Source: Sialis fuliginosa
Lineage: Eukaryota > Arthropoda > Insecta > Megaloptera > Sialidae
Length of the DNA stretch: 64,000 nt
Assembly (NCBI GenBank): GCA_961205875.1
Contig: OY540817.1
Span: 10,761,001-10,825,000, forward strand
Direction: 5' to 3'
Below the pieces are notes generated by a model. It worked only from the letters and a program-made list of their open reading frames with translations, was not told the origin of the DNA and did not search any database. The number at the start of each line of letters is the position of its first letter. Within the stretch, counting starts at the first letter, position 1. This document shows positions 2,668-50,440 of this stretch, one piece after another. The translations under genes and the position numbers were made by a program.

Positions 2668-3339
2668 TGTCCGGTATTATAAAGGAGCTAACAAAATTTG
2701 CTAGCTAGTAATTACATTCATGTCCGGTATCATAAAGGACCTAACAAATTTGTTAGCTAACAAACACTTTCAACTGAGATATCAAACTTATATGACAGTT
2801 CTTTTGGAGTTTATTGATGACTTTGACAAGTTTCGCGCACGCGTTGAAGGTAAATACAAACGGTATTAAAACAGTGGTGATGTTATGAAAATTATTTTGT
2901 ACCGTCAAAGATGCCAACTGTGTTACAATTAGTTGAAGTGTCACTGCTCTAAATTCCATAACTAATCCATAGATACTAGTACAGTATTAATACCCCATTT
3001 AAATGTAATTGCTAGCTAACAAATTTTGTTAGGTCCTTTATAATACCGGGCATCAAATGGGGTATTAATTCTGTACTAGTATCTATGGATTAGTTATGGA
3101 ATTTAGAGCAGTGACACTTCAACTAATTGCAACACAGTTGGCATCTTTGACCGTACAAAATAATTTTCATAACATCACCACTGTTTTAATACCGTTTGTA
3201 TTTACCTTCAACGCGTGCGCGAAACTTGTAAAAGTCATCAATAAACTCCAAAAGAACTGTCATATAAGTTTGATATCTCATGTCAGTTGAAAGTGCTTGC
3301 TAGGTAACAAATTTGCTAGGTCCTTTATGATACCGGACA
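2668..3339. mobile_element. Palindromic, nested TGTCCGGTATTATAAAGGA-family MITEs
   Basis: Left termini start at 2668 and 2721. Right termini end at 3052 (CCGGGCA) and 3339 (CCGGACA). The segment 2721-3339 is a palindrome with arms 2721-3004 and 3051-3339, so the same roughly 65-codon open frame appears as a mirror image on both strands. TA flanks the right end. Related copies are at 18172-18468, 21855-22111, 51858-52091 and, degenerate, from 59390. The family behaves like Tc1/mariner MITEs (TA target). No transposase is encoded. Confidence 0.8.
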
Positions 3340-4116: not shown

Positions 4117-4233
4117 GCGCCAAATACAAATGTCGAGTATTTCTCTGAATCAGACTTCGTGAAACCACGTAGACCCGTGCATTTTGGGCCAAGATATCGA
4201 AGTTACGACTACGACCGTGACGCGTCGTTCTGT
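4117..4233 (+). CDS. Coding exon (first visible), phase 0 to phase 0
   Basis: The acceptor TTTTCAG precedes 4117 and the donor TGT|GTAAGTA follows 4233. Only phase 0 is open; the other two frames hit stops within the exon. It encodes 39 residues rich in Arg, Tyr, Asp and Pro (for example FGPRYRSYDYDRD). It has no in-frame ATG, so translation must start upstream. Its codon use is more GC-rich than the later exons. Confidence 0.8.
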
Positions 4234-7200: not shown

Positions 7201-10200
7201 GAACCCATAAATAACTTTCCTATAGTATCTAGTTAAACAGTGAATTTTTTGAAATTTTTTATTAATCGTTAAATAGCAATATTCCTTTTTACAGCTGATC
7301 GGGAATAAAGCGACATTTTTCAAAAATTACATTTTAGTCATGAGATTTTCGACGACCATCACTCAAAAACTATTAACTTTTGAGATATGATTTTTATTAT
7401 TTTTTATAGGAAATTTCATTCTCTATCAAATGGGTCCTATTCAGTTTTGCTCTAGCTCACATCGTTTTCGCTGCATCGATGATTTAAACATAAGCGGCGG
7501 TCAAGTTTTTTGTTTTTATTTTTTTGTATGTATTTCCCGGGGGTCCCCGCTCCAAAAGGTTTCTGATTTTAAATAATATAAAAAAACAAAACTAAATAAA
7601 AAAAATTATCAAAATCGGAGCTGTTCTTGACGACTTAGAGATATTGCCTGTTTTATGTATTCATTGACGCGACTATATACAAGTATTATCATAAAAATAT
7701 TATGTTAATTAAAACGTGGAATTCACAAGAGTAAATAAATAGAATGTTTCGGTCATTAAGAATGTGACCCTCGTAAAAAAGATCACAGAAACATAAATTT
7801 GGTTGACAAGTTAAAATAATCAAATTGCGTCATGCATATATACTGATATTTTTGTTCCTATTGAATATGAAAAGGGTTATTGTTCTTAAAAAATGACACC
7901 GTCGTAGAGCAACCAGTAAGGTCTATAACAGGGCTAGCTAACCTGCGGCACGTAGTCACATATTTTTATAGTGTTTATAGGCTGGTTTTAATTTTTCCTT
8001 TTGTGTGAGTACTTTTTTTCGTCTTTCTGAGGTTATTCCCTAATATTGCCGGGGAAGACGTAGTTCTACTAAAAAAAATGAAATTGATTAGAAAAAAAAT
8101 CAAAACCAGTTACTTATCAAATAAATACAAAATTTCTTATTTATGTGCGGCCCTCGAAAAAAATTAGGTAGCAGTGCGGTCCATGGTGCAATTTAGGCTG
8201 GCCAGGCCTGGTCTATAAATTCAACTCGGCAGAACAGTTCTTCTGTAATATATTCATTAATTATTAAAAAATAGTATTAAAAAATATGTAGCGACGTTCC
8301 CACGCTAACATATTAGATTTCCAAAAGTTTAATGTAAATATTTCATACACACATTTATTTTTAATAAATAATTTTATTGCAGTTAGGTGACAAATTTCTT
8401 TAATTGCTTACAAGATTATAAAACTTCTAAATTTCTTGAGCCTGTCCATTTCGTTTTAAACACGTTCGATTTGGAATTCCCAGGATCGTCCAATAAAGAT
8501 TAGCGGTAAAGGTCCAATAAGATTTCAAACATGCCGACCGGGGTTTTTCCAAAACGTTCTGAATTTTTCCCCCTCTCTAAATATATATCGCTATCCTTTT
8601 CTAACCGCTCAAAAACAGGATCTTTCATTTTTCAAAACAGACACTTGGTTTCAACTCCTGACATAGTAAACATCTCGCTACACACTTGGTCTTCAACTCC
8701 TGACACGGTAAACATCTCACTACAGTACCTTTGCGCTGAATACTATACATAATACACTATAAGTACATCATATACAACATATACATTTATACTACAATAA
8801 ATTAATAAATAATTAATAAAAACTTCAAAAGTGTTATCATTCAAAATGTACCTTGCACACAGTCACTAAAAATATATATTTCCAATGTTCCCATATTTTC
8901 TACTACAATATTTATGTCCGATTTTTTTATCTCTTATCAATTAGCCAGAAAGTTATGTTTTAGGGGGCGGGGAGGGGAGCTGACAGGGCTCCTCTTAGTA
9001 ACAAGAATCCGCGATAAGATGCAGGGTCCAAGACTTACGTATAAAAAAATTCCGTGACATATATACATGTCAGTTTTTTTTACGCAATTCAGCATAACAG
9101 CATGCAGATAATTGTATGATTAAAACAATATTATTCTGGAGCTTAACGATAAATGTAATATTACTTATCTTATTATTGCTGCATATTTATTTTTAGGTAC
9201 TTATCAATGAAGTTTAACTCTTAAAATTGATGATTATATATAATTATTGACCTCACCTTGAACTTTAGTGAGATAAATATATACTTAGCAAAAACAAATT
9301 TTATGTATTTCTTAATGACGTATACATATCTGTGTTTTTTTTTTAGAAATTAAATATAATTAATTATTTAATAATTTTATCATAAAATTAATTATTTTAA
9401 TTTTTTTATTTTTCTCTTTTGAGTGGCGTATCTTGAGATCCATTGTCAGATTTTGATTAATTTTCTATGGGATCTCCTCGGGAGTATACTCTTCCAAACA
9501 AACAAAAAATCATCCAATTAGGTGCATATTTGTTGGAGTTATGCCCGAACATACATAAATATATATATACAACCGAATTGAAAAGTTTATCTTTTTTGTG
9601 GTGAGATTTTTTATGGTTACATTCTGATGAAATTTATATGGGACCACCTCAAACAAACAAAAATCGTCCATATTTGGCCGGAGTTATGCCTGAACATAAA
9701 TAATAAATATGTTCAAAGTGGTCCCATATAAATTTTATCAAAATCTGACTATGGACTTCAAAAAAGGATGGGGGTTTCAATATGGTTGTTTATATTTTTT
9801 TATGTATTTTCGGGCACAATTCCAACAAATATGCACCTATTTGATTGATTTTTGTTTGTTTGAAAGAGTATACTCAGTGCCGGCCTTAGCAAATCTGGCG
9901 CCCTGGGCGAGATTTATTTTTCCGCCCTCTATCCCCCTAAAAAAATGTTGAAAAATCACCGAAAATGTCAATTAAAATTGATAAATAAACAAATAAGTTG
10001 AATAATTCATATCTCAGCTTGGCGCGATCCTACAGACTCAAACTTTTTTTTTAAATATAGCTTACATAATTAACTTTAAGACTATCAAATTCCCAAAGAC
10101 AGTCGAGACCTCCTTCCTCTATTGTGAACAAATTAAAATAGATAAATCAACAAATAATTTGATTAGTTAGCAATGTCTTTCAAAATACGCATTCAAAATT

Positions 10201-16200: not shown

Positions 16201-19200
16201 TCGTATTAGCGTCCCAAATTATTTCATTCAATTTTTTACGATTGTACAAATAGAAGACATCTACCTTAGTTTCACTCAAAAATATTCGACCCTGATATTT
16301 TTATTTAAATTTTAGTAAAAAGGTAGTTTTTCAAAAATTTACGTTACTTACCCTTAAATATTAGCAATTTTCATTGGTTAAACTATTAATTTTTTTTTTT
16401 AATTGTGGTTAATTAATATTTTATTAATAATTATTATTCTTTGGAACTTCAGGAACAATTTGAGCCTAATTACGAGTCATTTGGATGATTTAACAAAAGT
16501 TATTAATTTTTAAACTATTTTCCCCGAAAAGAAGCATTTTTACTTTTTTTAAACCCTCTAGAAAGAATAATTTTTGATCAAATTCAGTATATGTAATCTC
16601 AATAGATTCGTCTGTGTGTCCCCAACAAATATCAATCATAAAAAAAACCCGCCATCGCTTTAGATTTTGAGATAAATTGAATAAAAGCTTGGTTTTCACC
16701 CTTCAACCCCATTTTTAAGGGTGTTGCACCACTTTTCTTCAGTCCGGGTTATTTTTTCGAATTCTTCGCCCCAAAATCTATAATAATCAACCATAAAATT
16801 ACTTACCCCTAAAATTTCGTGTCAAAATGCTTTCTTTACTGGACTATACTCTATTTAATTTAAGAATGCATTTTGTACTTTTTTGTCAGAAATTTTTTTA
16901 AAAGAAATAGGTAATGTTTCTGAAAAAGTACAAATTTGTGTACTGTTCCAGTTTGTCAATTAATAATTAATAATATAGTATAAATTGCACCCTTTTTCCA
17001 AAGTTTTTCAACTGCGTAAAATTGAATCCGTGTAAATTATACTGTATGTTATAAATGTAATATCATTGTTCTTTGTTCTTCTCGTTGGATTCTCCACAGG
17101 ATTCTCGATTTAATTCTGACACTTATAAAATTTTTAAAACAATATTTAAATATTTCCACTGATATCTAGATTTAAGAATAAAACTGTTTACAGTAAAATA
17201 GAATCTAGATATCTAGTGTTATTATAGTGTTTGGTTTTTATTTTTATGATCAGACAACAAATAGAAACTTCAGACAAAATTGTAATACTAATCCTTTACT
17301 GTTTGTCATCAGGCAAAATAGTATTACGTCAGTGTGTATCTTTTTTTGAATTGTACTTAATTAATTGTTGAAGTTTTGTTACATTTCAAATATTGATTGT
17401 TGTAAAAATCGAAAACGAACTTCATTTGTTTGGATTTGGTTAATAATTTGATAGTTCATACCGGGATGTTGGATGTTGTGTATCTATTTTCTTATAAAAT
17501 AAAAAACAAATATATTAATATGAATTATTATAATACGCAGTACTATTATGTGTGGTACTATCCTTGTTTTTTGGTAAGCTTTTTATATTTTATTTTTGTA
17601 TAAATACAAATAAAGACGCATTTATAGGTTATAAATTTATTACCTTTAAATGCGTCTAAACCCGCTGTTATAATTTAACAATATTATTTATTACAAATAA
17701 TTATTAAAATGTGATTCACAATGTACTATTAAAGTAAAACAATTACAATATGAATTACCAAACAAAATACATTATTGTAAATATTTTGGTAGTCACGTAT
17801 TTTCGCTGTACGAATTTATTATAAATAGGGGATAATTTTGCTTAAGGTGGTGTATATTTGAGATATGCATGATTGTAATTATAAATAGCTAAGTATTTGA
17901 TAATTAAAACTAAAACAATTGCTTTTTCGTCTTATCCAAAGCATCGTAGGAAGCAGGGTCGTCTTAAGAAATTTTAAAGAATCTTTTTTTTACAGATCAT
18001 TGAATTTTCTCTAAAAAGACCGTCATAACTTTTGTAGTAAAATATTCCCTTACGAAAATAAATCTCTAGAATATAGGTATAAATGATTTTTATTTTGTAG
18101 GTTATGTTTTTTTTATTTGTCTGTAATATAATACAGTCTGTAATATATTACTGGCCGTTTTACAATATTAATTTCCGGTATTATAAAGGAGCTAGCTAGC
18201 AAGCACTTTCAAATGGAGTATCAAACTTATATGACAGTTTTATTGGAGTTTTTGATAGATAATTTCATGCATAGGAAGTAAAATTAAAGATATGTAAAGT
18301 ATATTTACTAAAGTGTATTTACTAATCTTGAGTAAAAACGGTAAAAACCATCTTACTGCGCTTGCAAATATCTGTTAAAAACTCAAAGAGAACTCATATA
18401 AGTTTGATACCTCATTTGAGAATGCTTGCTAGCTTGCAAATTTGCTAGCTCCTTTATAATATCGGACATAAGTCAATTTATTACAGTGTACAAAAGTACT
18501 ACAATAACGTCGTGTTCTTTGGTCTCTTTTTTTAAAGGTTTATTTCAGGTGCACTCGCATAGCAAATTTATTGTTGCACGAAATTTAACTCGTGTCACAC
18601 ATGTTTTTTTTTAATTTGTGCGTATGCGCTATCTTCTAAATGAAGACACCAAAGAACATGACAAATATGTAAACACGGGCATAATTCACGTTTAGCTAAA
18701 AATGACGAATCTGTCTAAACTCTTACGTATTTTCTAGTTTTATCTATTAGTTGGTTACTTTTTTATAATGCCTTATTTTAGAGGTAAAAACTTGTTTATT
18801 TTGATTGATATTTTTAATTCATTGTTCAATCAAATAAAATAACGATTTTGTTTTGCCTCCGAATAACGTCGCACTAATTTAAGATTACGTGGACATTGAG
18901 TTACAAACAGATAAATAAAATTTATCACTATTGACAAATTGATAAGTAGGTATATACCTACTTCTAAATTAGATAGGTATTTAATACTAAATAATTGAAC
19001 ACTAATATATACGTTTCCATATTTGCGGATTTGATTGATAAACATGCCCGTAAGTAATCGTTCTTTTTAGTGTTACCTAAATATAAGTTTTTAAATTTAT
19101 ATTTATAAATTATTAATTATTTTTCTCTATTTTTACAGCCATGGAATAGTTACTTGCACAACAGAAATTATTCAAATTGGTACTCGGGGGAATATAATGA

Positions 19201-22200
19201 ACAAAATCAAAGTATTCATAATGAGTATGCAGACAACTCACCAGATATGAGGCAGTATGTATTATTGAACATTACTTTTTTGTATTTATTATTTTGTAAG
19301 ACGTTGTAAATAATTATTTCGCTATATTAATACATACGCCAATTTTAATAAGTCCTAATTATTAATATTAGCAGCTAGCATGGGAGTGCACCGGTAAAAA
19401 AATTAATTATTATTAAGGATGTATGGCAGATATCTAATTTTAACGCTAAATAGTTGAACTGTTACCGCCGATCTTTATTGGACCTTTACCGCCGATCCCG
19501 GGATATCCAAATCGAACGTGTTTAAAACTAAATGAACAGGCTTAAGAAATTGAAAAGTTTTATAATATTGTAAACAAAAGAAATATGTCGCCTAACTGCA
19601 ATAAAGTTGTTTCTTAAAAATAAATGTGTGCATGGGCGCCGGGAGGGGGTGTGCAAGGAGGTGCACTTGCACCCCCCTGGCAAATGAAATAATTAAGAAA
19701 TACAATTGTAATTTAAAAATTTAATACATTTGCACCCCCCTGGCAAAATGAAAAAAAATGTACTCCGTGAATAATAAGGTATAAATGTGAAAATTTTAAA
19801 CTGAGGACCTTTTTTTTTTTAGTCGTCTCAGTTTTCAATTATACATATTTAAAAATTGAAGACCTTTTTTTTTTTTTTACTCATGTAAATATTCATAACA
19901 AATTTTTTTTTATATCTAGATGCACCCCCCTAGCAGAAATCCTGCCGGCGCCCATGAATGTGTGTATGAAATATTTACATTAAAATTTTGGAAATCTAAT
20001 ATTTTAGCGTGGGAACGTCGCTACAAACGAATGTAGCAAAATATTGTGGTAATATTAGACAAGCGTGTTTACAAAATTGTGTAAAAGAGGGGGGGGGGGT
20101 GGGGGTGGATAGCCCTTCACCTATACTATTTTTTTAATTACATAAATTAGTGAAATTTTCTAACCTTGTGCTTTCTCTTAAGCTTTTTAATGCATGAATA
20201 ACATTTATTTTTTTAGATTTACTAACCATCAGGCTTTTCTATGTAAATATCATTATAAATCAAATTATTATAGAGCAGAATGCGATTTCTGTTTAAGGTA
20301 AGATATTACTAACTTTAGGCATATTTATAAGCCGAAATGAGAATAAAATAATGAATTTAAATCATTTCCGAACTAGATTAAAAGATAATATGACTACTTC
20401 TCCATATAATACCAGTGGTGTAGTACCAAATAACCAAGTCCCGGAGCGCTTACGATTGTTTTTCAATTGCTACCCTTAGATGTTTATGTAATGTTTACTT
20501 CTTCGTGAGAATAATTTTAAGTATAATAATAACCTTGTTTTAATATCTTTAGGTTAATAAATTCCGGAGCGCGCTCCGTTTCAAAATGTCCCAGATACTA
20601 TGGTCCGACTATACTACTGCTTTTTATCTACCTTATTATTTATTTATACATAATTACTAACATGTGTGAAATTAGTATAGCATGTTTCGGAAAAATGTTA
20701 GTTCTAAAATTCCCTTATATTTTGAAGAAGAAAAAATGTGAAAATAACCCTCCCCGTCAAAAAAAGAAGAGAATTCGATAACTCTAGTGTGCTATCCAAA
20801 AAACAATTAAAAAAATTTAAACTTGCGGTACTAACTTCACACATATTGTTTGGATATGTGTCGTTGATGGTAGCGAAGCCTTCAGTGGTGAAAATCGAAA
20901 CTAATGCAATCTGGTCAATTGTTATCTAACCTAACTTAATTAACCAATGTTTAGCAAACAATGAAATTAGTGATTATATATGTTTAATAATTAGAGTATT
21001 AAATTTCTTTTATAAAGAAAATAAGTATAGTTCTTCAAAACAATTTCCCATTTTAATTAAACACGTTTTTCAAACTAACAACTGACAACTGACCCGATAA
21101 GAATAGTTATTTTTTTCATCACACCATGTCATACGATCATAGGCATACCAATTTAAATTATGAATTTTTACTTAGAGAGTATCAATCCAACGAAGTTTTT
21201 TCAAATCGTTTCCCGTCCAGAGGCCATCGTACAGCAAGGGGAGCAAGAGGAGCAAGAAGGGGATCAAGGGGATTAAGGGGATGTTACAATGGAATAAATA
21301 CTCCTAGACCCCCAACACACAAATATTACAATGGTTATCATGAAAGGTACATTAATCTATATTTATAATAGAGTTTGTTCTTGCCCACTCACTGACTCAT
21401 CAACATACAGCCCAAACTCCTGGACTTAGAAAACATGACATTCTATTAGATTAGACCAAAAACTGGCTGCAAAAAAACTAGCCTATCGAGTAACTGGGTA
21501 AAATGTTTTTTAAATGTTAGTACCCATAGCGACCATGAGAAAAATCTTTCTATACCTGGGCGGAACTTGTTAATTTTTTAGGAGGGTGGGGGGGGGGGGG
21601 GGGTACTAAGGAGCTAAAGCTAGAAAAAATATTTTTTTTATATCAAGGCATGTGGCATGTTAAAATGTATAATCAAAGCAACGGAAATTGACTTTACGAA
21701 ATTGATTTTACGACCTGGCCCTTTTCAAAAAAAGATTGCCGACCCCTGTTGTAGAGCACTAAATTATCTATTATTTTATTTAAATCTTTTTTTGTAGCAT
21801 TAATAATATAATTAAGTCGTACAAAATGGCATAGCAAAAATTATAAAGAATTTATGTCCGGTATTATAAAAGAGCTAGCTAGAGCAGTGATACCTCAACT
21901 TATTGTAACACAGTTGGCGACTCTGACCTTACAAAATCATTTTCATAATATCGCCACTGTTTTAATACGTCGGTGTTTACATACCACGCGTGCGCGAAAA
22001 TTGTCAAAACACTTCATGAGACTTAAAGAGAACTGTCAGTTAGGTTTGAAACCTCATTTAGAAGTGCTTGTTAGCTAGAAAATTTTACTAGCTCCTTTAT
22101 AATACCGAACATTGATGTTCTACAAGATTATCATTTGATATTTTAATACAGGGTGTCTAAATACCAGGGTAAAGTATGGGGATATCGGAAACGATTAGAG

Positions 22201-25200
22201 TTAGAGATTCAGTTAAATGAGATAAAACTTACCTTTAAGAGGGTACAGTTTAATGGTGCATTAAAATCCCATAAAATTCTCATACCCTACTAGATATTAG
22301 CCAAAAACCGTTTTAGTCCGAAATTTTTCATCGTGAATGTTTTTTTAGCGACTTAAAACTTAAAAAAAAGTTTCAAATAAATAATGCAGGGATGAGTATT
22401 GTCTATTTAATAATATTTTGTTAATTTTCAGAAATCTCTTAGTTTTTGAGATATGAGACAAGTTCATGTTTATGTTATTTTTCAAATCTTTTGCAAATGA
22501 TAGCACTAAAATCTTATTGTTGAGTTTTTTCTATTTTAAACCAATTCAATTGTTTCATAGAAACAGAAATATTAAAACAATAATAGCCTGCTTTGAATAA
22601 TTATTTATTTATTGGTGAAAACCGCATTAAAATCGGTTCAGTAGTTTTCGAAATAAGCGGTAAAAAAGATACAAAAATAAGTTTCTTTTTACGTAGGTAG
22701 AGTTTTAATGCGGTTTACACCAATAGATAAATAATTATTCAAAGCAGGTTCTTGGCTATTATTGTTTTAATATTTTTGGTTCTATGAAACTGAATTGGTT
22801 TAAAATAGAGAAAACTCAACAATAAGATTTTAATGCTATCATTTGCAAAATAATTGAAAATTTTTACTTTTTTATGGTGGGAATCGATTATATAAGTCTT
22901 ATACAAACAGTTCTGCAAAAATAAAAGTTTAAAAAAAACTTTTATTGTTAATCAAAGACAAGCATAATTTCATTATTAACAATTCAATAAAACAAAAACA
23001 GTTGATGATATCAGGTCCTAATTGTCAGTGAATGTTCTGTACTACAGAATGTTTATTTTCTAGGGGTATTAACTTAAAAAACGTTAAACTTTATAAGTTA
23101 TTACAGCTTAAAAAAAAAGTTTGTTTTCAGCCATTTTAATCAGCGTAGTAGATAAATAAATGATTTTTTTATTTTTTTTTCAAAATGGAGAATGTAGGGA
23201 ATTTTGTAGCAAATAACTTTTATTTGAAATTATTTTTTTATACAACTTTTTTTTTATACTACAAGCAGTACCCCCCCCTTCCCCTTCTCTAATGGTAACT
23301 GCTGATTCAAAAAATCTGATTAAAAAATTTGGTAACAATGCTTTGAAGATACTACTAACGACAAATACCAGTCAGCAATATTATTTCAAATTTTAGAGAA
23401 ATATGGAGGGGCGTCATAAAGTAATTTTTTTTTATTTTCATATCTAGGCATGTGGGGTGTCAAAATGTAGATTTCAATCAGTAAAATTTGACTATATTTT
23501 TATTTTAAGTTTCTAACTCAAAAATGCCGCTGCAATGTCTGTCCACGTAGTACGTACCTTCAGAACCATTATGTCTGACGAATTTTTTTTCTACCTATTG
23601 ACTTGACTAATTTCAGTATAATAATGTTAATTTCGATTCTTACTGAATAACAGTTGCAATAATTTTGTTTTCCAGATATCCAGATAGAAGTTATGATAAT
23701 GTAGACGCCAATTATCAAAAAGATAATGTCGAGTATAACCAACTTGATGATGATGAAATAGACCAAGATAGATTTGTTGAAAGATTAACAAAAAAGTACT
23801 TATCAAACTTGGAAGATATAAGGCCAAGAAAAAGAAGAAAAGGTCAATGTACAACTGAAAAGACGCATAAAAGTTTGAAAACCAATGATGCCTGTGATGA
23901 GACGAAATTAGAAGATATTTCTGAAAATGAAATCTTTCAAGATGTAATGAAACATAAAGAAACATTGTGTACAAGCAGTGACCATGGATTAGATATGTTA
24001 TCAGTTTCTGATATTTCTTCTTTAAGTGAGCCAAATAAAGATATTACTACAAAGAACGTAGACACCTCTAATAAAGTTTGTTTGAAAAAACTTGATGTGA
24101 ATGTTCTTAATTTGAATAATACAAATGAAAAATGTAACACAGCAGAAGCAAGTGAATCTGATAAGGAAATTAACCAGATAGATAATGTTCCAGACAATCA
24201 TGATGATATAGAGAAAGTTAACTCAATTGAAATTAATACTGAAAAATCTTACTTGGTTTCTGAAAAGGATGAAAAAGAAAAAAATGAAGAAATAGGGTGC
24301 GTTGAAAAAAATGTTGTGCCAAATGAAAATAAATCAAATATGAATCATAATAAAATTAAAATTTTTAACTTACGTGATGAAAAAACAAATTCCACTTATA
24401 ATAAAAATCGACAAATTAATGGTGGCAGCTTAGAAACAAGAGTAGAGGAAGTTAAAGATATAAGTATTAACGATTTTTCTGAAAACCCATTAGAAAATGG
24501 TAAATTAGGAAGTCCCACTGACCATAAAATATTAAACAAAGTTACTGAAAATGTAGTAACAAATAGTATTTGTGATGACTTGAAAAAAGGAAAAGAAATT
24601 ACTGAAGTGAAGAAAGACAACGTGGAAAACAAAAGCTATGAAATCCACATTCCTGAATTAGAATGTAATGAAAATGAATTATTACTGTATTATACAAAAT
24701 CGTCTTCAAATGCAGCAAATAAAAAAATTAAAGTCAATCTTATGAAAAAACCCAGAGGTAGGTTAATTTTATCAATTATATTTAATTTTTGTGTTTAATA
24801 ATAATTCATTGCAAACGCTCCAACTTTGAAGGACCAAGTAGTTTAAAAAAAAAACCGTCTGATTTTTAATGTTTTTCTTCTATTTTTGATGAATAAATTA
24901 AACATAAGTTTTAAAGTGATAATCAATATTATTATTCAAAGTAGAACAAAAACCATAAAAAATACTGTTTCAGATTTCTAAGTAAAGCCATTTTTGTAAA
25001 AAAAGTTTTGTCCTTCGAGGTGGATATCTTGTATTATTATTAATGTGTCAGATAACTGACAATACAATGATTATTGCATTAAATATATATTTAACTTAAA
25101 ATATGTTAATGTCATTATGAAATATAATTAAATAAATGATATTTTTCACAGATTCAAGTGCACCAAACAAATATAGCGAAGCAAATAAAATTTCTGAAGA

Positions 25201-28200
25201 AAGCATACAAGAGTCTGTGCAGAAAAAAACATATTTAAATGAAACATCGACAAATGTCAGTACACCAGTACAATTACCACAACAGAATCCAACTGACAAA
25301 CTTAACAAAAATGAAAATGTACCGATTCAAAACAATATGAGTCTTGGATCGTGGAGGATGCCAACTAAAATTATAGAAGAAAGTCCACGCGAGCCTGTGC
25401 AGAGAAGATCATCTTTCAATGAACATTCAAAACAGAGTTCAAACAACATTAATAGCTTTGCAAATGTACCAACCAGACATAAAACAAGCCCAAAATCATA
25501 CAGCGAAGCAAATAATGTTTCTGGAGAATATCCACAAGAAGCTGTGCAGAGAAGATCTTCTTTAAATGAAGCCTCAATAAATGCAAGTAGATCAGTACAT
25601 TTACCAAAACAGAGTCCAAGCGACAATAATAGTCATAAGACAAGTCCAAGATCATGCAGCGAAGTTAATAATATTTCTCGAGAATATCCACAAGAAGCTG
25701 TACAGAGAAGATCTTCTTTAAATGAAGCCTCAATAAATGCAAGTAGATCAGTACATTTACCAAAACAGAGTCCAAGCGACAATAATAGTCATAAGACAAG
25801 TCCAAGATCATGCAGCGAAGTTAATAATATTTCTCGAGAATATCCACAAGAAGCTGTACAGAGAAGATCTTCTTTAAATGAAGCCTCAATAAATGCAAGT
25901 AGATCAGTACTTTTACCAAAACAGAGTCCAAGCGACAATAATAGTCATAAGACAAGCCCAAGATCATGCAGCGAAGTTAATAATATTTCTCGAGAATATC
26001 CACAAGAAGCTGTGCAGAGAAGATCTTCTTTAAATGAAGCCTCAATAAATGCAAGTAGATCAGTACATTTACCAAAACAGAGTCCAAGCGACAATAATAG
26101 TCATAAGACAAGTCCAAGATCATGCAGCGAAGTTAATAATATTTCTCGAGAATATCCACAAGAAGCTGTACAGAGAAGATCTTCTTTAAATGAAGCCTCA
26201 ATAAATGCAAGTAGATCAGTACATTTACCAAAACAGAGTCCAAGCGACAATAATAGTCATAAGACAAGTCCAAGATCATGCAGCGAAGTTAATAATATTT
26301 CTCGAGAATATCCACAAGAAGCTGTACAGAGAAGATCTTCTTTAAATGAAGCCTCAATAAATGCAAGTAGATCAGTACTTTTACCAAAACAGAGTCCAAG
26401 CGACAATAATAGTCATAAGACAAGCCCAAGATCATGCAGCGAAGTTAATAATATTTCTCGAGAATATCCACAAGAAGCTGTGCAGAGAAGATTTTCTTTA
26501 AATGAAGCCTCAATAAATGCAAGTAGATCAGTACATTTACCAAAACAGAGTCCAAGCGACAATAATAGTCATAAGACAAGTCCAAGATCATGCAGCGAAG
26601 TTAATAATATTTCTCGAGAATATCCACAAGAAGCTGTACAGAGAAGATCTTCTTTAAATGAAGCCTCAATAAATGCAAGTAGATCAGTACATTTACCAAA
26701 ACAGAGTCCAAGCGACAATAATAGTCATAAGACAAGTCCAAGATCATGCAGCGAAGTTAACAATATTTCTGGAGAATATCCACAAGAAGCTGTGCAGAGA
26801 AGATCTTCTTTAAATGAAGCCTCAATAAATGCAAGTAGATCAGTACATTTACCAAAACAAAGTCCAAGCGACATTAGTAAAAATATAAGTATCAGACACA
26901 ATACAAGCCCAAAATCATACAGTGAAGTTAATAATATTTCTGGAGAATATCCACAAGAAGCTGTACAGAGAAGATCTTCCTTAAATGAAACCTCAACAAA
27001 TGTAAGCAATCATCAACAAAACATAAGCAAACCTCAACAAAATGTAAGCAATCATCAACAAAACATAAGCAAATCTCAACAAAATGTAAGCAATCATCAA
27101 CAAAACATAAGCAAACCTCAACAAAATGTAAGCAATCATCAACAAAACATAAGCAAACCTCAACAAAATGTAAGCAATCATCAACAAAACATAAGCAAAC
27201 CTCAACAAAATGTAAGCAATCATCAACAAAACATAAGCAAACCTCAACAAAATGTAAGTAATCATCAACAAAACATAAGCAAACTTCAACAAAATGTAAG
27301 CAATCATCAACAAAACATAAGCAAACCTCAACAAAATGTAAGCAGATCAGTATATTTTGAAAAAAATAGTACAAATGAAATTAATCGAAATGCAAACACA
27401 TCAACAAGACACAATATAAGCCCAAGATCATATAGTGAAGCACACAAAGTTTCTGATAAGGGACTACTTACTCATAAAAAGGAAATTTCACCTGTTGCTG
27501 TTCATAGAAGAACTTCTTTACATGAACCATCAAGACAGTGCCCAAATGATATTAATAATACTTTAAAAGAACCTGTGAAAAATAATCATTTAAATGTGTT
27601 ACAACAGCCTAGAAGATCTTCTGTGGATGATATTTCAAATAAAAAACAAGATGTAACTAATGTGAATATGAAATTAAAAAATAACATACGTAATTTAAAT
27701 CAAAAATATCCAACTGATATAAATTTTAATGTGAAAGGTAATAATAAACTTCTTAATAATAAAGTGACTATTATTTCCAATCAGAAGGTTAATATATTAG
27801 AATTTAATAATATACCTAATAATAATGCAGTAAAAAATATATCCAAAGTTAATAATGAACGATTATTTAATGATTCTGCAAATGAAACTAATACTTTAAA
27901 ACATAATGAAAATAAAGGAATTATTCTTACTATTAATGAGTATAATAAAAGAACTCAAATGAAGAAAAAAGAAACTGAAAAGGACCAACGGCAAGAAGAT
28001 ACAAAGTCATTAAAATTTTATAAAATTCCTAAAGTTTCTTCTCCGGTATATGCTACAGAAAAAAAGGAAACACCAAATTTGAAAAATAATACGATCAGTA
28101 CTGAAGATAACATCAAAAATATACTAAAAAAATTTAATAACAGTCCAGAGAAAAAATCTATTATTAATAATGATCAGAATATGGGTGGAATGACTGTACA

Positions 28201-31200
28201 GAAGAACAATAATGCTATTATTAATAAGTTTGATGAACAATACAGACAGACAAATAAGAATTTAAAAGCAGAATTGGCAAAAGATATAATGAAAAAAATA
28301 CCACTGACTTCGTCGAAATATAAAAAATGTACCAAGAAAAAAGTACCACAAAAAAGTAATAGTTCTATCGAAACACAAAAAAATAATGAAGACAAATTCA
28401 AAAAGACCTTTGGTTTGAAAGAATGTTCCATCGTCATTCCAAATATCGAACAAATGAAAGTTAAGAGCTTCACCAACAACACAAAGCTAGAATGTGATAG
28501 AACCGAAAATGACAAATCGAAAAGTAGTAATCGTGAAAGAAAACATCAAGGACATTTGAAACATGACAAAAAAAGTGATCGAAAGAAATCAAAACATGAT
28601 GAGATGAATAACTGCCTTAATGGTGATTTAAAGTTATATAAAAGTGTTGAAAATGATAAAAATCCTCGAAAGCGGAGACACAGTACAAACAAATTGAAGG
28701 TAGATGACAAACATTCAAAAAAGAAGTGTTCTGAATCGGTAGGAGATGACAAGAAAAAAGATCATAAAATAATTAAGAAAATCCATGAAAAAGAAACAGA
28801 TAAAAATAACAAACGTATTTCAGAAAAGAATATTTCTGTGAGTGATAATATTGATAAAGATCAAAGCAGAAAACATAAACATAAAAATCAACTCATCAAA
28901 CTAGATTCAATAACAATAACAACCCAAGAAACTAAAACTAAAATAAAGATTACTGAAAATAATTCTAACAAACCAGCAGATTATACACACAATAAAAAAT
29001 TAGACATGCCTTCGTTGGATATAATTGATAATGCAGGTACACAAAAGTTATTCGAGAGTAAATGTGTAGAAAGTTTGAATAATAATATTGATGAATTACT
29101 GAATGATTCCAGTAATAATTTAACAAGTTCCAAGCAAGAGAATGAAATAAATAATGAAAAAATAATATCTGCAAATAAGATACACAGTGCAACAATAGAG
29201 ACACAAACTGAAGACAATTTAGTAATTGATAATACTAATGATGCCATTCATAATGCCCTTTCATTGCTACATACAGATGATAGTTCAAAAACACAAACAC
29301 CTTCGAAGAAAGGCATAGTTGATAATTCACATTTATTGCTACATACAGATAATAGTTCAAAAACACAAACACCTTTGAAGAAAGGCATAGTTGATCATTG
29401 TGTAAGAGAAAGCACTGATTTAATAAATGATTGTGATAATAGTATAACAGCTAAGGATAAATCAACAAGTATGAGTACACAGACGGACCCTGAAATAATT
29501 GATTTGACTCTAGAAGATATCATAAAAATTGAAAATGTAAATGAACAAACACAAAATCTGGAGGTTGATGAACGAGAAAATTCAACACTAAACAACAATT
29601 CTCCAAAACTTCCTGTTATAAGAGTTCGAGATCCATCATACATGTTGATAGAACAAGAAGTCAAAGTTATAGATGAAATAGCACCATATTTGTTTTTAGC
29701 TTTTAAAGATTATGAACGTTGCAAAATAAGGATCAGTGAATTAAAGAATGTAGGGAAGGACTTTTATAAGAAAGAAAAAGAAAGTGCACTAAATGAGTTA
29801 GATATAAATATCAGAATGAGAAGTGTTCCTATCTTTAGTATTTTCAACAGAAATGTTGATTTGTTTAATAAACACATCGCGTTTGAAGAATTAACAAGAA
29901 AATTGATTACTATGTCTACAAATTCTCACTACACTGTTGAAGAAGTAAGATGCTATTTTCATAAAATCGTTGATTTCTGCCAACAGAAGAATAATGGAAA
30001 TACACAAGTTCCAAGTGTCATAAACAATGATTCGAGAAATCAAACAGGCACAGGAGTTAATTTTCAAAATCCAGAACAAAGTACTTATGAGTTGACAAAC
30101 TTTCATCAAAGTAATCTGAATAAACATTACTCAGTAAATACATCTTCTGGTCTGCCATCAGCATACATATCACCATTGAATGTTCCACAAAATTCAATAA
30201 ATGTACAACCTCATTATCAAGTGCAAAGCAACTACTCTGTTGAAGATACTCGTGTAGTGAATAATATCTCTGCATCAACGGCTGTTAACATTCAGTCGGT
30301 ACAGAATAATATACAACAAGGATCTCTTGTAATGCAAAGATTGCACCATACTTCACACACATATCAAAATGCTGTACAAAGTAATGTTAATGTTGTACCA
30401 GTACAACAATTGAATAGTAGTACACAACAAAACGTAAATGTCACTCCTAATATGCATAACAACTCTTTCATTTACAACCAAAATTCTATTTATGATAGAG
30501 TTACACCTCATCTTGATTACAGTGCAGAAACCAGTTCAAATTCGACTTTACCAAGTATGCAAATATGTAATACCATACCAACCATTCAACAAAATTATAA
30601 TATTCAAAATGCATATCCTGCAAATTCTGTATATAATAATGTGCCTAGTATGAATCGACCATGTGATGGAGGACAGTATAATGTACGTAACATTTCCCAA
30701 CCATACAATTATAATACAGTACAGCAAGTTTCGCCTAATCCAAGTTCTGTGTCTACCAATAATTACCAAAACGGTAACATATCGCAATTTAATCAACCAA
30801 TAAACGTACAAATGCATCAATCTGTAGTTCAGCATACCGATTTAAACAATTCAAACAGACATTTATCTCAAATGGCACATATTGTTCAACAGCAAGCAGT
30901 TACTACACAGAATTTTATTAATCCAAGAAATACAGTGGCGCAAAGTGTAAGGAGTGTGCAACAGAAAAATAGACGACAAAGTAATTCAAATATAACTATA
31001 GTTGGTGGTAAAAAGAGTAATCAGCAGCAGCAAACAAGATTGGAAAATATGAATAAAAATACTGGAACAAACCAAGAATCGATAACTAGGTTGTTGACTA
31101 ATAAAAATCCACAAACAAGTATTGCTATCAATGCACAAAATAATACAACTCAAAGGCAAGAATCAGTTATCCGCAATAATTATATTAAAACTGTGCCTTC

Positions 31201-31417
31201 CAATCAAGAAAATGATGTTACCTATTATGGTATGCCTCAAGAAACTGTAGGCTTTATTATTCCAAAAATGGAAAGATCAACTCATACATTAACTAACAAT
31301 TGTGCTAGGGGAATTACAGAATCAACAACTTTATATCCAGCTGATATAGCAAGTGGTGGAAGACAACATACATCAAATAATATGGTAACTATCTCTTTAG
31401 CTGCGGGATCTGGATAA
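4117..31417 (+). CDS. Large low-complexity nuclear-type scaffold protein, 5' end missing, 6 exons
   Basis: I do not recognise this gene. Six exons join without a frame break: 4117-4233, 19139-19254, 20217-20297, 21143-21346, 23676-24757, 25152-31417. Intron phases are 0, 2, 2, 2, 1, all with GT/AG borders; total 2621 residues plus TAA. Residues below count from the Ala at 4117. Visible parts: C87-x2-H90-x9-C100-x2-C103; RG box 131-151; basic 222-228 (RPRKRRK); Asn/Glu/Lys-rich 174-617; tandem 52-mers 642-1109; QQN heptads 1153-1264; Lys-rich about 1647-1785; TQT motifs at 1884, 1914, 1938 and 1976; IIDLT at 1982-1986; compact segment about 2027-2148; Gln/Asn-rich about 2150-2560. No transmembrane segment is evident; a signal peptide cannot be judged without the start. 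The composition and motifs suggest a nuclear, multivalent, mostly disordered scaffold (inference). An upstream exon with the ATG must exist. Confidence 0.88.
4290..4570. repeat. Partial copy of the GGGTGTCCCGA-ended MITE family
   Basis: The right terminus CGTCGGGACACCCATGTTCT at about 4549-4568 and the internal block 'AATAGATTGTCCTAACCAAGG' region match, in inverse orientation, the complete element at 15853-16082. The left end has diverged or been lost. Confidence 0.65.
4571..5736. other. Intron 1 noncoding stretch
   Basis: AT-rich intronic DNA without a recognisable element. The short open frame at 5630-5884 runs into the palindrome arm that starts at 5737 and is not supported as a gene. 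Confidence 0.5.
5737..7675. repeat. Nearly 2-kb near-perfect inverted repeat inside intron 1
   Basis: The left arm (5737-6632) and right arm (6767-7675) are reverse complements along almost their full length, with a 134-bp loop (6633-6766). Matching landmarks include GGAGCGGGGACCCCCGGGAA (left, about 5838) and its complement near 7536-7555, and the block around 'GCAGCGAAAACGATGTGAGC' (left, about 5926). Differences are scattered single bases and small indels. It lies in the sense-transcribed intron of the large gene, so unspliced RNA could fold into a hairpin of roughly 900 bp. No transposase frame was seen. It may be a large foldback element or a local inverted duplication. Confidence 0.9.
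7676..8287. other. Intron 1 noncoding stretch
   Basis: No gene. It includes phrases such as 'CGGCACGTAGTCAC' and 'GTGCGGCCCTCG' near 7945-8160 that look like the termini of an old hAT-type element, but I could not pair the ends. Confidence 0.4.
8288..8528. repeat. Repeat family C copy, uninterrupted
   Basis: Runs from GTAGCGACGTTCCCACGCTA to GGTCCAATAAG. The inverse copy at 19440-20024 carries the same blocks but is split by a hAT-type MITE. This copy keeps the unoccupied target (CATACACACATTTATT at about 8346), so it serves as the empty-site reference. Confidence 0.8.
8529..9430. other. Intron 1 noncoding stretch
   Basis: No gene is supported. Around 8640-8725 a short imperfect direct repeat ('TTCAACTCCTGACA...TAAACATCTC', about 50 bp apart) explains the local 73-codon open frame. 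The rest is AT-rich and featureless. Confidence 0.5.
9432..9870. repeat. Foldback repeat with two nested arm pairs
   Basis: The outer arms share the block AGTATACTCTTCCAAACAAA (about 9482) and its complement (about 9846-9866), with 'AGGTGCATATTTGTTGGA' also mirrored. An inner pair (about 9625-9680 and 9715-9760) shares the complement of 'GGTCCCATATAAATTT'. The 80-codon open frame over the right part is a by-product. Confidence 0.65.
9871..10130 (+). repeat. Repeat family D, CAGTGCCGGCCTTAG end
   Basis: Starts CAGTGCCGGCCTTAGCAAAT and contains 'GGCGCCCTGGGCGAGATTTA' and 'TCAGCTTGGCGCGATCCTAC'. An inverse paralogue occupies 48073-48275. The CAGTG-type terminus is typical of hAT-like non-autonomous elements, but no 8-bp duplication was confirmed. 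Confidence 0.65.
10131..10525. other. Intron 1 noncoding stretch
   Basis: Nothing recognisable; AT-rich. Confidence 0.5.
10526..10622. repeat. Short tandem repeat, about 42-bp unit
   Basis: About 2.3 copies of a unit built from GTGTGAAAT and GTGAAATTATATTTCAT, beginning just upstream with a more diverged GTGCGAAAT copy. Confidence 0.65.
10955..10987. repeat. 33-bp minimal foldback
   Basis: GGTCACGTTCAC, a 9-base loop, then GTGAACGTGACC. The arms are the termini of the MITE at 1204-1553, so this looks like an internally deleted relic. Confidence 0.7.
11040..11345 (+). repeat. Repeat family A, truncated copy
   Basis: Begins CTTCCTCGCAATATCGAAGA and contains the diagnostic GTCTGTC/GTCCGTCC tract and 'GAACCACTGAACCGATATTG'. 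It ends shortly after 'GACATTCCAAAATA'. Fuller copies are at 12586-13160, 51712-52770 and 58228-58836. Confidence 0.75.
11368..11885 (-). mobile_element. Candidate solo LTR (minus strand), GC-rich
   Basis: On the minus strand this roughly 518-bp block reads TGACATT...TTTTTGTGACA. It carries a TATA-like GGTATATAAC (about 11706-11716), a GC-rich stretch full of CCGCCGCC, and an AATAAA at 11460-11465. That order (TATA, R region, polyadenylation signal) is what a retrotransposon LTR shows. GC content is far above the surroundings. No gag/pol frame or second LTR is present in the window, hence 'solo'. A target-site duplication was not found, so the borders are approximate. Confidence 0.45.
11886..12585. 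other. Intron 1 noncoding stretch
   Basis: No gene. A G-rich patch (12296-12322) followed by a C-rich one, in a 'GGACCCTGTGATGGGAGG' context, suggests a worn DNA-transposon end. Confidence 0.4.
12586..13160 (+). repeat. Repeat family A, nearly complete copy
   Basis: Runs from TTGCTTCTTCGCCTTATCAA through the 'GAACCACTGAACTGATATTA' block to the far end 'TTAACTAATGGCAGGCAGTT'. The same far end, inverted, opens the copies at 51.71 and 58.23 kb. It has no coding capacity and no clear terminal inverted repeats; the class is unresolved. Confidence 0.75.
13446..14348. repeat. 0.9-kb foldback with internal CAGGGGTGTATGG ends
   Basis: The arms (about 13446-13870 and 13965-14348) are imperfect reverse complements. 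Within each arm, CAGGGGTGTATGGAGCCAGT (13576) and its complement (about 14211-14231) resemble hAT termini, but the complementarity continues beyond them. The 74-codon frame at 13595-13819 is a by-product. Confidence 0.75.
14394..14508. mobile_element. 115-bp TA-flanked MITE
   Basis: The termini TATACTCTATTT and AAATAGAGTATA frame an almost complete hairpin: AAGAATGCAGTGGTTACCG against GGCAACCACTGCATTCTT. TA sits at both borders, consistent with a Tc1/mariner-type MITE. A half copy (TATACTCTATTTAATTTAAG) is at about 16853. Confidence 0.8.
14509..14999. other. Intron 1 noncoding stretch
   Basis: AT-rich; no recognisable element or gene. Confidence 0.5.
15000..15105 (+). repeat. Repeat family A fragment
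   Basis: Carries the family A core 'CTTTTCGTTTCATGTCTG' to 'GCGCATAACTCATGAACCA' and then switches abruptly to an RTE-like tail at about 15106. Confidence 0.65.
15106..15250 (+). mobile_element. RTE-like non-LTR retrotransposon 3' tail
   Basis: Contains the widespread arthropod signature in order: 'ACAAAGTAGCCTATGTCCTT', 'CTGCCAAATTTCATCAAG', 'TCGGTTCAACGATTTAACCG', then GACAGACAGACA and 'TTTCGCATTTATAAT'. It is 3'-end only (5' truncated, as usual for these elements). No reverse transcriptase frame is present. Confidence 0.75.
15251..15852. other. Intron 1 noncoding stretch
   Basis: The 97-codon open frame at 15470-15763 has no recognisable motif, and codon use does not differ from the noncoding background. 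No gene is called. Confidence 0.4.
15853..16082. mobile_element. 230-bp MITE, TA-flanked, CAGAGAATATGGGTGTCCCG ends
   Basis: The left end CAGAGAATATGGGTGTCCCG (15853) is mirrored by CGGGACACCCATATTCTCTG ending at 16082, with TA at 15851-15852 and 16083-16084. This is a complete Tc1/mariner-type non-autonomous element. A partial inverted relative is at 4290-4570. Confidence 0.88.
16083..18171. other. Intron 1 noncoding stretch with minor repeats
   Basis: No gene. It holds a half MITE at about 16853, a 10-bp-arm stem-loop at 17615-17656 (GACGCATTTA/TAAATGCGTC), a short family A fragment near 17930-18060, and long AT-rich DNA. The 69-codon minus frame at 16490-16699 is not supported. Confidence 0.5.
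18172..18468. mobile_element. TGTCCGG-family MITE
   Basis: Termini TTCCGGTATTATAAAGGAGC and GCTCCTTTATAATATCGGAC; TA follows the right end. Subterminal repeats (AAGCACTTTCAAATG and its mirror near 18415) match the 2721-3339 and 21855-22111 copies. Confidence 0.85.
18469..19138. other. End of intron 1
   Basis: Noncoding. A short palindromic patch, GTAGGTATATACCTAC at about 18946-18961, is seen. The intron ends with a pyrimidine tract and TTTTACAG at 19138. Confidence 0.6.
19139..19254 (+). CDS. Coding exon 2 (visible), phase 0 to phase 2
   Basis: TTTTTACAG|CCATGG opens it and AGGCA|GTATGT closes it. It encodes a Tyr/Asn/Ser-rich segment (residues 40-77 plus two bases), including 'NRNYSNWYSGEYNEQNQ'. 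The ATG inside is out of the coding frame. Phase agrees with both neighbours. Confidence 0.85.
19440..20024 (-). repeat. Repeat family C copy, split by a hAT-type MITE
   Basis: An inverse relative of 8288-8528, with the shared end TAGCGTGGGAACGTCGCTAC at 20005-20024. The MITE at 19631-19956 interrupts it. Located in intron 2. Confidence 0.75.
19631..19956. mobile_element. 326-bp hAT-type MITE with 8-bp duplication
   Basis: The ends CATGGGCGCCGG and CCGGCGCCCATG are inverted repeats. AATGTGTG occurs immediately on both sides (19623-19630 and 19957-19964). Subterminal TGCACCCCCCTGGCA and similar blocks recur inside in both orientations. The paralogous family C copy at 8.35 kb has a single AATGTGTG-equivalent, which confirms the insertion. 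Confidence 0.92.
20089..20099 (+). repeat. G homopolymer in intron 2
   Basis: Eleven G followed by TGGGGGTGG in otherwise AT-rich DNA, with potential to form a G-quadruplex. Confidence 0.8.
20217..20297 (+). CDS. Coding exon 3, Cys/His motif exon
   Basis: ATTTTTTTAG|ATTTAC opens it and TTTAAG|GTAAGA closes it, phase 2 to phase 2. It encodes residues 78-104 with C87-x2-H90-x9-C100-x2-C103 in the sequence CKYHYKSNYYRAECDFC. The spacing could bind one zinc ion, but I cannot match it to a named zinc-finger class. Confidence 0.85.
20298..21142. other. Intron 3
   Basis: Noncoding. The 63-codon frame at 20738-20929 lacks support. No clear transposon was identified. Confidence 0.6.
21143..21346 (+). 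CDS. Coding exon 4, RG-box exon
   Basis: Closes with CATGAAAG|GTACAT, phase 2 out. Two acceptors give the same frame: AG at 21141-21142, the first AG after a T-rich tract, and CTTAG at 21171-21175, which would drop 11 residues. The exon encodes an RG-rich box (residues 131-151: six RG dipeptides), a known feature of RNA-binding and arginine-methylated proteins, then 'TPRPPTHKYYNGYHE'. Confidence 0.78.
21588..21603 (+). repeat. 16-base G homopolymer in intron 4
   Basis: An uninterrupted G run next to a worn DNA-transposon end; 'AAGATTGCCGACCCCTG' at about 21731 resembles a hAT right end. Confidence 0.75.
21855..22111 (+). mobile_element. TGTCCGG-family MITE
   Basis: Termini TGTCCGGTATTATAAAAGAG and CTCCTTTATAATACCGAACA. 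Its interior open frame is related to the mirrored frames at 2753-2959 and 3096-3290. The repetition explains the resemblance, so no gene is called. Confidence 0.85.
22488..22852. repeat. 365-bp foldback in intron 4
   Basis: Arms 22488-22635 and 22695-22852 are near-perfect reverse complements (for example TTGCAAATGATAGC and GCTATCATTTGCAA). The loop carries 'AAAATCGGTTCAGTAGTTTT', a motif of non-LTR tails. Confidence 0.85.
22853..23675. other. End of intron 4
   Basis: Noncoding, AT-rich, with a C-rich patch at about 23270-23284. It ends with TTTTGTTTTCCAG at 23675, a strong acceptor. The minus-strand frames overlapping 23569-24197 are antisense shadows of exon 5. Confidence 0.65.
23676..24757 (+). 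CDS. Coding exon 5, charged Asn-rich region
   Basis: The acceptor TTTTCCAG and donor CCCAGAG|GTAGGT are both good; phase 2 in, phase 1 out. It encodes residues 174-533. The acidic 'QLDDDEIDQDRFVERLTKKYL' segment and the basic RPRKRRK (222-228, NLS-like) are followed by about 300 residues rich in Asn, Glu, Lys and Ser with no recognisable fold. Sequence after 24757 runs into a stop 13 codons later, as expected for intron. Confidence 0.88.
25152..31417 (+). CDS. Coding exon 6, terminal giant exon
   Basis: A 6.27-kb exon after TTTTTCACAG; it encodes residues 534 (shared) to 2621 and TAA at 31415-31417. It holds the 52-residue repeats, the QQN heptads, the Lys-rich block, the four TQT motifs, the IIDLT motif, the only compact-looking segment and the Gln/Asn-rich tail. 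Uninterrupted frame over this length is itself strong evidence of coding. Confidence 0.95.
25475..27007 (+). repeat. Coding minisatellite: nine 156-bp units plus a partial tenth
   Basis: Nine units of exactly 156 bp (52 residues) run 25475-26878, followed after a 15-bp insertion by a partial tenth (26894-27007). Each unit reads approximately HKTSP...SEVNNIS-EYPQEAVQRRSSLNEASINASRSV...PKQSPSD. Units 2-8 are almost identical at the DNA level; units 1, 9 and 10 have diverged. Older relatives lie upstream (about 25205 and 25390) and downstream (about 27490 and 27600). Each unit carries an R-R-x-S-hydrophobic site and two Ser/Thr-Pro sites. Confidence 0.95.
27008..27343 (+). repeat. Coding minisatellite: eight 42-bp units
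   Basis: Eight 42-bp units encode NHQQNISKPQQNVS; each is itself two related heptads, giving sixteen [NK]-x-QQN-[IV]-S heptads (residues 1153-1264). Variation is minimal: one KS and one KL in place of KP. The regular antisense frames here are artefacts of the period being a multiple of three. Confidence 0.95.
29201..29518 (+). other. Cluster of four LC8-type TQT motifs followed by a SUMO-interacting-type motif
   Basis: TQT triplets are encoded at 29201 (IETQTED), 29291 (SKTQTPS), 29363 (SKTQTPL) and 29477 (MSTQTDP), separated by 27, 21 and 35 residues. TQT is the known anchor for the dynein light chain LC8/DYNLL groove. Six residues after the last TQT is EIIDLTLED (29492-29518), close to the hydrophobic-acidic SUMO-interacting consensus. 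Binding is inferred from the motif only. Confidence 0.6.
29630..29995 (+). other. Compact, probably helical segment of unknown family
   Basis: Residues about 2027-2148 are the only stretch in the terminal exon with mixed hydrophobic and charged composition and few Asn/Gln runs: it begins PSYMLIEQEVKVIDEIAP and ends near VDFCQQKN. Periodic hydrophobics (Leu, Ile, Phe, Tyr) suggest helices. I cannot assign a domain. Confidence 0.55.
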
Positions 31418-49782: not shown

Positions 49783-50440
49783 ATGAGTTCCGTGTATGCG
49801 AAGCGCTTTGCGGTTGTTTTCTTGTGCTCCCATTAAAAAAAAACTAAATTATTATATGCTGCTGCAACAAAAGCGAATAAAAAGTCCGAAAAGTTTTTTG
49901 AGAAGTGGGTGAAATGGAACAAACAATATAAAAAGTCGATGATCTTCCTGAAGGCGGAAAAACGAGAGCGACGTCTAGCAAGTACGACAAAGTGATTGTG
50001 ATGTTTTTTAGGAGAAACCTCATTCTGCGCCTGCGCGAAGTTAGGGTCAAATTTGCCAAAAAGGGAATTCATATTGGTCTAAATATGATCAGGCGACTTT
50101 TACACGAGGTAAATATATTATATTGTTCTACAAGCTTTAAACTTCTGCTCAGTGCAACGCACATACAAAAACGCCTGAGCTGGGCAAGCGAGAACAAAGA
50201 TCTTGATTAGTCGATAGTAGTTTTTTCGGATGAAGTAACTTTATAGGTATGGGTTCGGATGAAGCGTGCCTGATTTCATTCATCATTTCACCGTTAAACA
50301 TCGCGTAAAAATTAAAATCTGGGGGTGCTGAAAATTTTGTTAAAAGTATGCCTCGGAGGTGCTAGGCCATTCTCGACGCTGGCGGGGATTATACAGTGTA
50401 TTAACCGATTACGCCTTAGTATTTTGAATGTACTTCCACG
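49783..50440 (+). pseudogene. Tc1-like transposase pseudogene
   Basis: In three frames on the plus strand: start 'MSSVYAKRFAVVFLC', then 'KSEKFFEKWVKW', 'VDDLPEGGKTRATSSKYDK', 'REVRVKFAKKGIHIGLNMI' followed by RRLLHE, 'HIQKRLSWASENKDLD', 'SIVVFSDEVTL' and 'KHRVKIKIWG'. These follow the normal order of a Tc1-family transposase: helix-turn-helix, linker, the SDE block with a catalytic Asp, then the V-x-IWG block. Frameshifts and stops (for example just after KDLD) disable it, and the C-terminal catalytic acid was not found. Confidence 0.82.

Follow-up and report, generated by a model that had tools for sequence, protein, structure and literature searches.

The window, which is the whole stretch of DNA analysed (64,000 nucleotides, C9:10761001-10825000), was taken from a genome searched as 392 Mb in 20 contigs. 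Its GC content (26-38% in 2-kb blocks) and its intron-bearing gene give it the look of eukaryotic DNA, and the encoded protein is probably of insect origin. An open exon of 6.3 kb on the forward strand (25152-31417) holds a cluster of short motifs resembling binding sites for the dynein light chain LC8. Exons 21126-21346, 23676-24757 and 25152-31417 join in phase via GT-AG introns to give a 2522-residue model, with arginine as the first codon read at the spliced 21346/23676 junction; with the additional in-phase candidate exons at 4117-4233 and 19139-19254, its length would be at least 2594 residues. The spliced model (21126-31417, plus the two upstream candidates) is a candidate structure predicted from splice borders and phase. 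Residues below are numbered from the ATG at 21126. The parts of the predicted gene outside the motif region are as follows.

4117..4233, forward strand: candidate upstream coding exon (39 aa, phase 0) with CAG/GTAAGT borders, whose phase joins to the later exons
19139..19254, forward strand: candidate upstream coding exon with CAG/GTATGT borders, in phase
21126..21346, forward strand: exon with the ATG and an RG-rich segment; starts at 21143 if spliced to the 19139-19254 exon
23676..24757, forward strand: charged coding exon with CAG/GTAGGT borders, in phase, FoldIndex negative except at residues 184-208
25152..31417, forward strand: main exon, with tandem repeats, a Lys/Arg-rich region, the LC8-type cluster, a SIM-like motif, a compact segment, an N/Q-rich tail and the stop codon
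25478..27006, forward strand: 156-bp (52-aa) in-frame tandem repeat, 9.7 copies (Tandem Repeats Finder), with RRSSL repeated
26988..27349, forward strand: 42-bp (14-aa) tandem repeat, N- and Q-rich, 8.6 copies (Tandem Repeats Finder)
28667..28678, forward strand: basic cluster RKRR (NLS-like) in a region with 29% K+R

Copies of the 52-residue repeat match one another at 96%, and the array looks recently expanded. Most copies carry RRSSL, which we take to be a basophilic-kinase type site. A Pfam scan of the 2522-residue protein in five pieces produced no match approaching a cut-off, and identities with Windei/ATF7IP and FLASH were dropped for lack of a Pfam match. Searching the PDB by sequence with the main exon gave matches over the Q/N repeats, to a tail needle protein at E=0.00024 and to the RevCC chain at E=0.062, which were treated as composition. 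No second gene was recognised in the window, where the Pfam scan covered nine of the other open reading frames (ORFs), and an Rfam search of the window at the gathering thresholds gave no match. A remnant carrying a Tc1/Tc3-type transposase helix-turn-helix (PF01498, E=3.8e-8) lies at 49932-50210. Almost identical ORFs in opposed orientation at 5824-6009 (reverse) and 7391-7576 (forward) suggest an inverted-repeat mobile element within the long intron that separates the first exon candidate from the second, and a comparable opposed pair is found at 2753-2986 (reverse) and 3069-3290 (forward).

The original prediction placed four TQT motifs and the sequence EIIDLTLED within 29201-29518 on the forward strand, and translation bears this out. 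Its residue range of 1870-2000 also agrees with our model, since the four sites fall at 1857-1949 when the two upstream in-phase exons are used and at 1785-1877 when counting starts at the ATG at 21126. The features of this part of the main exon are listed below, with the value of a home-made LC8 score for each octamer and its rank among published peptides.

29189..29212, forward strand: LC8-type octamer 1, ATIETQTE (TQT at residue 1785); score 1.04, above 23 of 27 nonbinders and 5 of 18 binders
29252..29395, forward strand: 72-bp tandem duplication, source of sites 2 and 3, in its best in-frame register (6 mismatches in 72)
29279..29302, forward strand: LC8-type octamer 2, DSSKTQTP (residue 1815), weak; score -1.54, above 15 of 27 nonbinders and 2 of 18 binders
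29351..29374, forward strand: LC8-type octamer 3, NSSKTQTP (residue 1839), weak, a copy of site 2; score -1.18, above 17 of 27 nonbinders and 3 of 18 binders
29465..29488, forward strand: LC8-type octamer 4, TSMSTQTD (residue 1877), the top score; 2.85, above 25 of 27 nonbinders and 9 of 18 binders
29492..29518, forward strand: SIM-like EIIDLTLED (core IIDL, residues 1883-1886), fitting the hhXh consensus in the relevant passage of PMC8616421
29522..29533, forward strand: IKIE, a match of the psi-K-x-E SUMO-acceptor type adjoining the SIM-like motif
29597..29995, forward strand: compact hydrophobic segment of 133 aa (residues 1917-2049), predicted helical at low confidence
30002..30010, forward strand: TQV just past the compact segment, a possible, very weak fifth site

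The 106-residue motif region (29201-29518) matches no Pfam family, and a PDB sequence search with it found no match. The cluster lies in a region rich in serine and threonine and in acidic residues, where FoldIndex is mostly negative apart from short positive runs between residues 1823 and 1869. TQT occurs at residues 1785, 1815, 1839 and 1877 and nowhere else in the model. The number expected for the whole protein is 0.57 against the four seen, and four within 93 residues arose in 0 of 20,000 whole-protein shuffles, figures that are post hoc in that the original prediction had singled out this region on account of its motifs. Sites 2 and 3, however, are copies that arose via the 72-bp duplication (1.9 copies at 29263-29399 by Tandem Repeats Finder). 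The number of independent sites is therefore three and not four; the four motifs of the original claim are present, but its count was inflated. Even with the duplicate removed, three TQT motifs were reached in 0 of 20,000 local shuffles, a test likewise post hoc, and the cluster exceeds chance.

The residues that surround the TQT motifs also follow a pattern. Proline, aspartate or glutamate stands at +2 in all four sites (three of them independent), compared with a background of 16%, and these residues at +2 are reported for tight LC8 binders in the part of PMC6607443 drawn on here. Among the 17 [ST]Q dipeptides of the protein, threonine follows in four of the five within residues 1780-1905 and in none of the 12 outside (Fisher p=0.002, or p=0.007 when the duplicate is counted once). 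This restriction of the third residue to the cluster favours LC8 sites over a plain SQ/TQ cluster, in which ATM/ATR-type kinases would phosphorylate the TQ dipeptides and the following threonine would be incidental. Such clusters are usually defined by three or more SQ or TQ in 100 residues, and four TQ occur within 100 residues here. In ASCIZ the ATM/ATR-substrate sites and the LC8 sites overlap. Passages in PMC10046861 describe ASCIZ as an ATM/ATR-related substrate with LC8 sites of the TQT type. However, the same density of four SQ/TQ per 100 residues recurs in windows starting at residues 2279-2283 of this protein and is thus not special, and a kinase has no need of either the TQT restriction or the preference at +2. 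We regard the kinase-substrate reading as rather unlikely.

A more general doubt is that a low-complexity protein, expanded by slippage and drifting without function, might contain TQT and IIDLT sequences that are never used. The main exon holds two further tandem arrays, which the 72-bp duplication resembles in kind; moreover, all six codon differences between its copies alter the amino acid in the register compared. Drift would nonetheless leave the preference at +2 unexplained, and the count and position of the TQT motifs surpass the shuffles without help from the duplicate. This explanation is unlikely, though by no means negligible, and the TQT cluster is most likely an LC8-binding region as judged from its sequence.

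How strongly each site might bind was estimated with a score of our own making, distinct from LC8Pred and trained on 18 binders and 27 nonbinders (45 of the 66 rows in Tables 1 and 2 of PMC6607443). Its leave-one-out AUC is 0.84, and site ranks were taken against the leave-one-out scores. Scoring of the four sites, suggested in the original prediction, marks site 4 as good and site 1 as fair but sites 2 and 3 as weak. The published preferences, as set out in portions of PMC6607443, are for P/D/E at +2, a large residue at -3 and a polar one at -4. Site 1, with T at -4 and I at -3, and site 4, with S at -4 and M at -3, also fit upstream; at -3 both sites 2 and 3 carry a small residue, serine. 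The same portions report that many anchor-bearing peptides fail to bind LC8.

The spacing of the sites bears on the architecture that LC8 could impose. The octamers are separated by 22, 16 and 30 residues, and in Drosophila ASCIZ linkers of 6-9 residues are associated with homogeneous binding and linkers of 30 and 41 with heterogeneous binding, the boundary between them not being established in the part of PMC10046861 consulted. The parallel ladder that had been envisaged is therefore doubtful, given two sites that are weak on the home-made score and linkers longer than the 6-9 residues that go with homogeneous binding in Drosophila ASCIZ. With such long linkers a rigid ladder is not expected, and a loose LC8 duplex would be formed instead. 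LC8 itself is encoded in the same genome by two adjoining exons on C2 (Dynein_light, E=1.8e-26), a sequence that we presume to be canonical LC8. The proposal of a multivalent LC8-binding region thus keeps the support of the clustering, the threonine at +1, the residues at +2 and the LC8 gene, and is tempered by the two weak sites.

Immediately after the last LC8-type site lies the putative SUMO-interacting motif (SIM). The SIM consensus, of the type described for PIASX, consists of an hhXh core with acidic flanks in the passages of PMC8616421 that define it. The I-I-D-L core with its flanks (E-IIDL-TLED) corresponds to this consensus, so the SUMO-interacting-type motif put forward in the original prediction is plausible as a SIM by sequence. 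IIDLT is the sole [VI][VI]DLT in the protein, with 0.0045 expected per shuffle (2,000 shuffles). The adjoining IKIE is less telling, as psi-K-x-E matches occur at chance frequency in the protein (two seen, 2.5 expected). In its hhXh core and acidic flanks the motif resembles PIAS-type SIMs; it differs in that there is a single short motif here and no E3 ligase domain by Pfam in the scanned parts. The gap between the last TQT and EIIDLTLED had been given as six residues; it consists of D-P alone, two residues. A single SIM placed at random would fall within two residues of an LC8 octamer with a probability of 0.03, making the adjacency only mildly surprising. At least one paper, PMC8514019, contains the terms SUMO-interacting motif, LC8 and dynein light chain together.

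Such proximity raises the idea of a switch at site 4, where LC8 and SUMO may not bind together and SUMO would compete LC8 off the site, or the reverse. A SIM binds SUMO by strand addition, and the IIDL core begins two residues past the end of octamer 4. LC8 likewise takes its peptides as a beta-strand (excerpted text of PMC6607443), and a SIM can lie parallel or antiparallel to the second SUMO strand (excerpted text of PMC8616421). The switch is, however, deduced from the spacing, and we give it a low but real chance. We prefer a multivalent LC8 client whose plausible SIM would act as a recruitment point.

The compact segment that follows was described in the original prediction as the only one in the protein. 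Residues 1917-2049 do contain the most hydrophobic 100-residue windows of the protein, but FoldIndex is also positive at centres 2112-2171 (in the N/Q-rich tail) and at residues 184-208. No Pfam match to the segment was found, its PDB sequence search gave one match with E=0.3, and no second match was found in the 20 contigs of the genome. Among 10 pattern hits in viral_contigs and 37 in genome_contigs, neither of which is a eukaryotic collection, tblastn detected no relatives of the segment. AlphaFold prediction from the single sequence is all-helical with a mean pLDDT of 46, and Foldseek comparison of this model with the PDB listed 22 matches, none with E <= 0.001 and the best with a probability of 0.12. 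Because of this low pLDDT and the absence of a significant Foldseek match, we claim no fold for the segment.

Taken as a whole, the feature may be read as the region through which a large, mostly disordered and probably nuclear scaffold binds LC8. The scaffold would be a multivalent LC8 client that carries a plausible SIM, and we put the probability of this reading at roughly 0.5. Sites 1 and 4 would probably be the chief LC8 sites, while the duplicated sites 2 and 3 might contribute weakly to avidity. By engaging the same region in two chains, LC8 dimers would join them, the pairing being loose and the occupancy mixed because of the long linkers. Pairing of the chains would bring two compact helical segments together, each beginning 36 residues past octamer 4, and the adjacent SIM could recruit either a partner that is SUMOylated or SUMO attached to the protein itself. 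We infer that the protein binds LC8 and SUMO, forms dimers and is located in the nucleus, and our guess is that the process served is chromatin or transcription. Pairing of two chains by LC8, with the SIM as a recruitment point, is taken as most likely because an LC8 gene is present in the genome and because the placement of LC8 sites beside self-association segments is a known design. Examples are dynein intermediate chain and Swallow, in the portion of PMC3995210 that concerns them, and 53BP1, in that of PMC12187134.

Similarities to several characterized LC8 clients can be recognised. Like ASCIZ/ATMIN, 53BP1, Nup159 and Chica, the protein has a number of TQT-type motifs, some stronger than others, in a stretch predicted to be mostly disordered, and as in 53BP1 and dynein intermediate chain its sites lie near a self-association segment, here a candidate one. 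It departs from ASCIZ/ATMIN, 53BP1, Nup159 and Chica in having no Pfam domain in the scanned parts, two duplication-born sites and a SIM-like motif that abuts the last site.

Drosophila Panoramix had been offered as an analogy, and it turns out to be better founded than was first recognised, as putative orthologues of Panoramix in insects show good conservation of their LC8 motifs (sections of PMC7861614 used here). These sections record three motifs in some species and two in drosophilids, and state that Panoramix with both conserved LC8 motifs mutated no longer binds Ctp or silences transposons. Judged by motif, this protein too has two or more LC8 sites. Alternatively to the preferred reading, the protein might be an orthologue of insect Panoramix that evolves quickly, or its equivalent in function, in which LC8 would dimerise the chains, the compact segment would bind a germline NXF protein and the SIM would couple to SUMO-dependent heterochromatin formation. 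The genome has two NXF loci with a TAP_C (NXF UBA) domain, one on C2, which we read as NXF1-like, and a divergent one on C11. Stretches around C11:11075730-11075831 were read as leucine-rich repeat, NTF2-like and UBA.

Resemblance to Panoramix (of the PICTS/SFiNX complex) thus extends to the clustered TQT motifs, to an N-terminal bulk that is mostly FoldIndex-negative and bears basic clusters, and to the divergent NXF locus in this genome, which is possibly an Nxf2-type gene encoding an Nxf2-like partner. That assignment is possible only. There are also differences. The protein of D. melanogaster has about 541 residues, compared with at least 2522 here. In the PDB sequence search with the main exon no Panoramix chain was matched and no sequence relation detected. 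A SIM-like motif stands beside the LC8 sites, and the order of parts is apparently different; the Nxf2-binding CC2 and the degron of Panoramix are listed before its TQT motifs in the sections of PMC7861614 used, whereas the compact segment here comes after them. An orthologue or functional equivalent is very unlikely, and we neither file the protein as Panoramix nor dismiss the idea. There is also a very slim chance that it silences co-transcriptionally in the manner of Panoramix without belonging to the known family; in such a protein an expandable LC8 array abutting a SIM would couple dimerisation with SUMO-dependent recruitment in one short stretch, and LC8 valency would shift by tandem duplication.

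On the preferred reading, the protein is a well-defined candidate LC8 client as predicted from its motifs. If real, it would represent a large LC8 client that falls in no recognised family and in which tandem duplication has altered the number of LC8 sites, and would offer a natural case for how LC8 valency evolves. It would also be a candidate for joint control by LC8 and SUMO.
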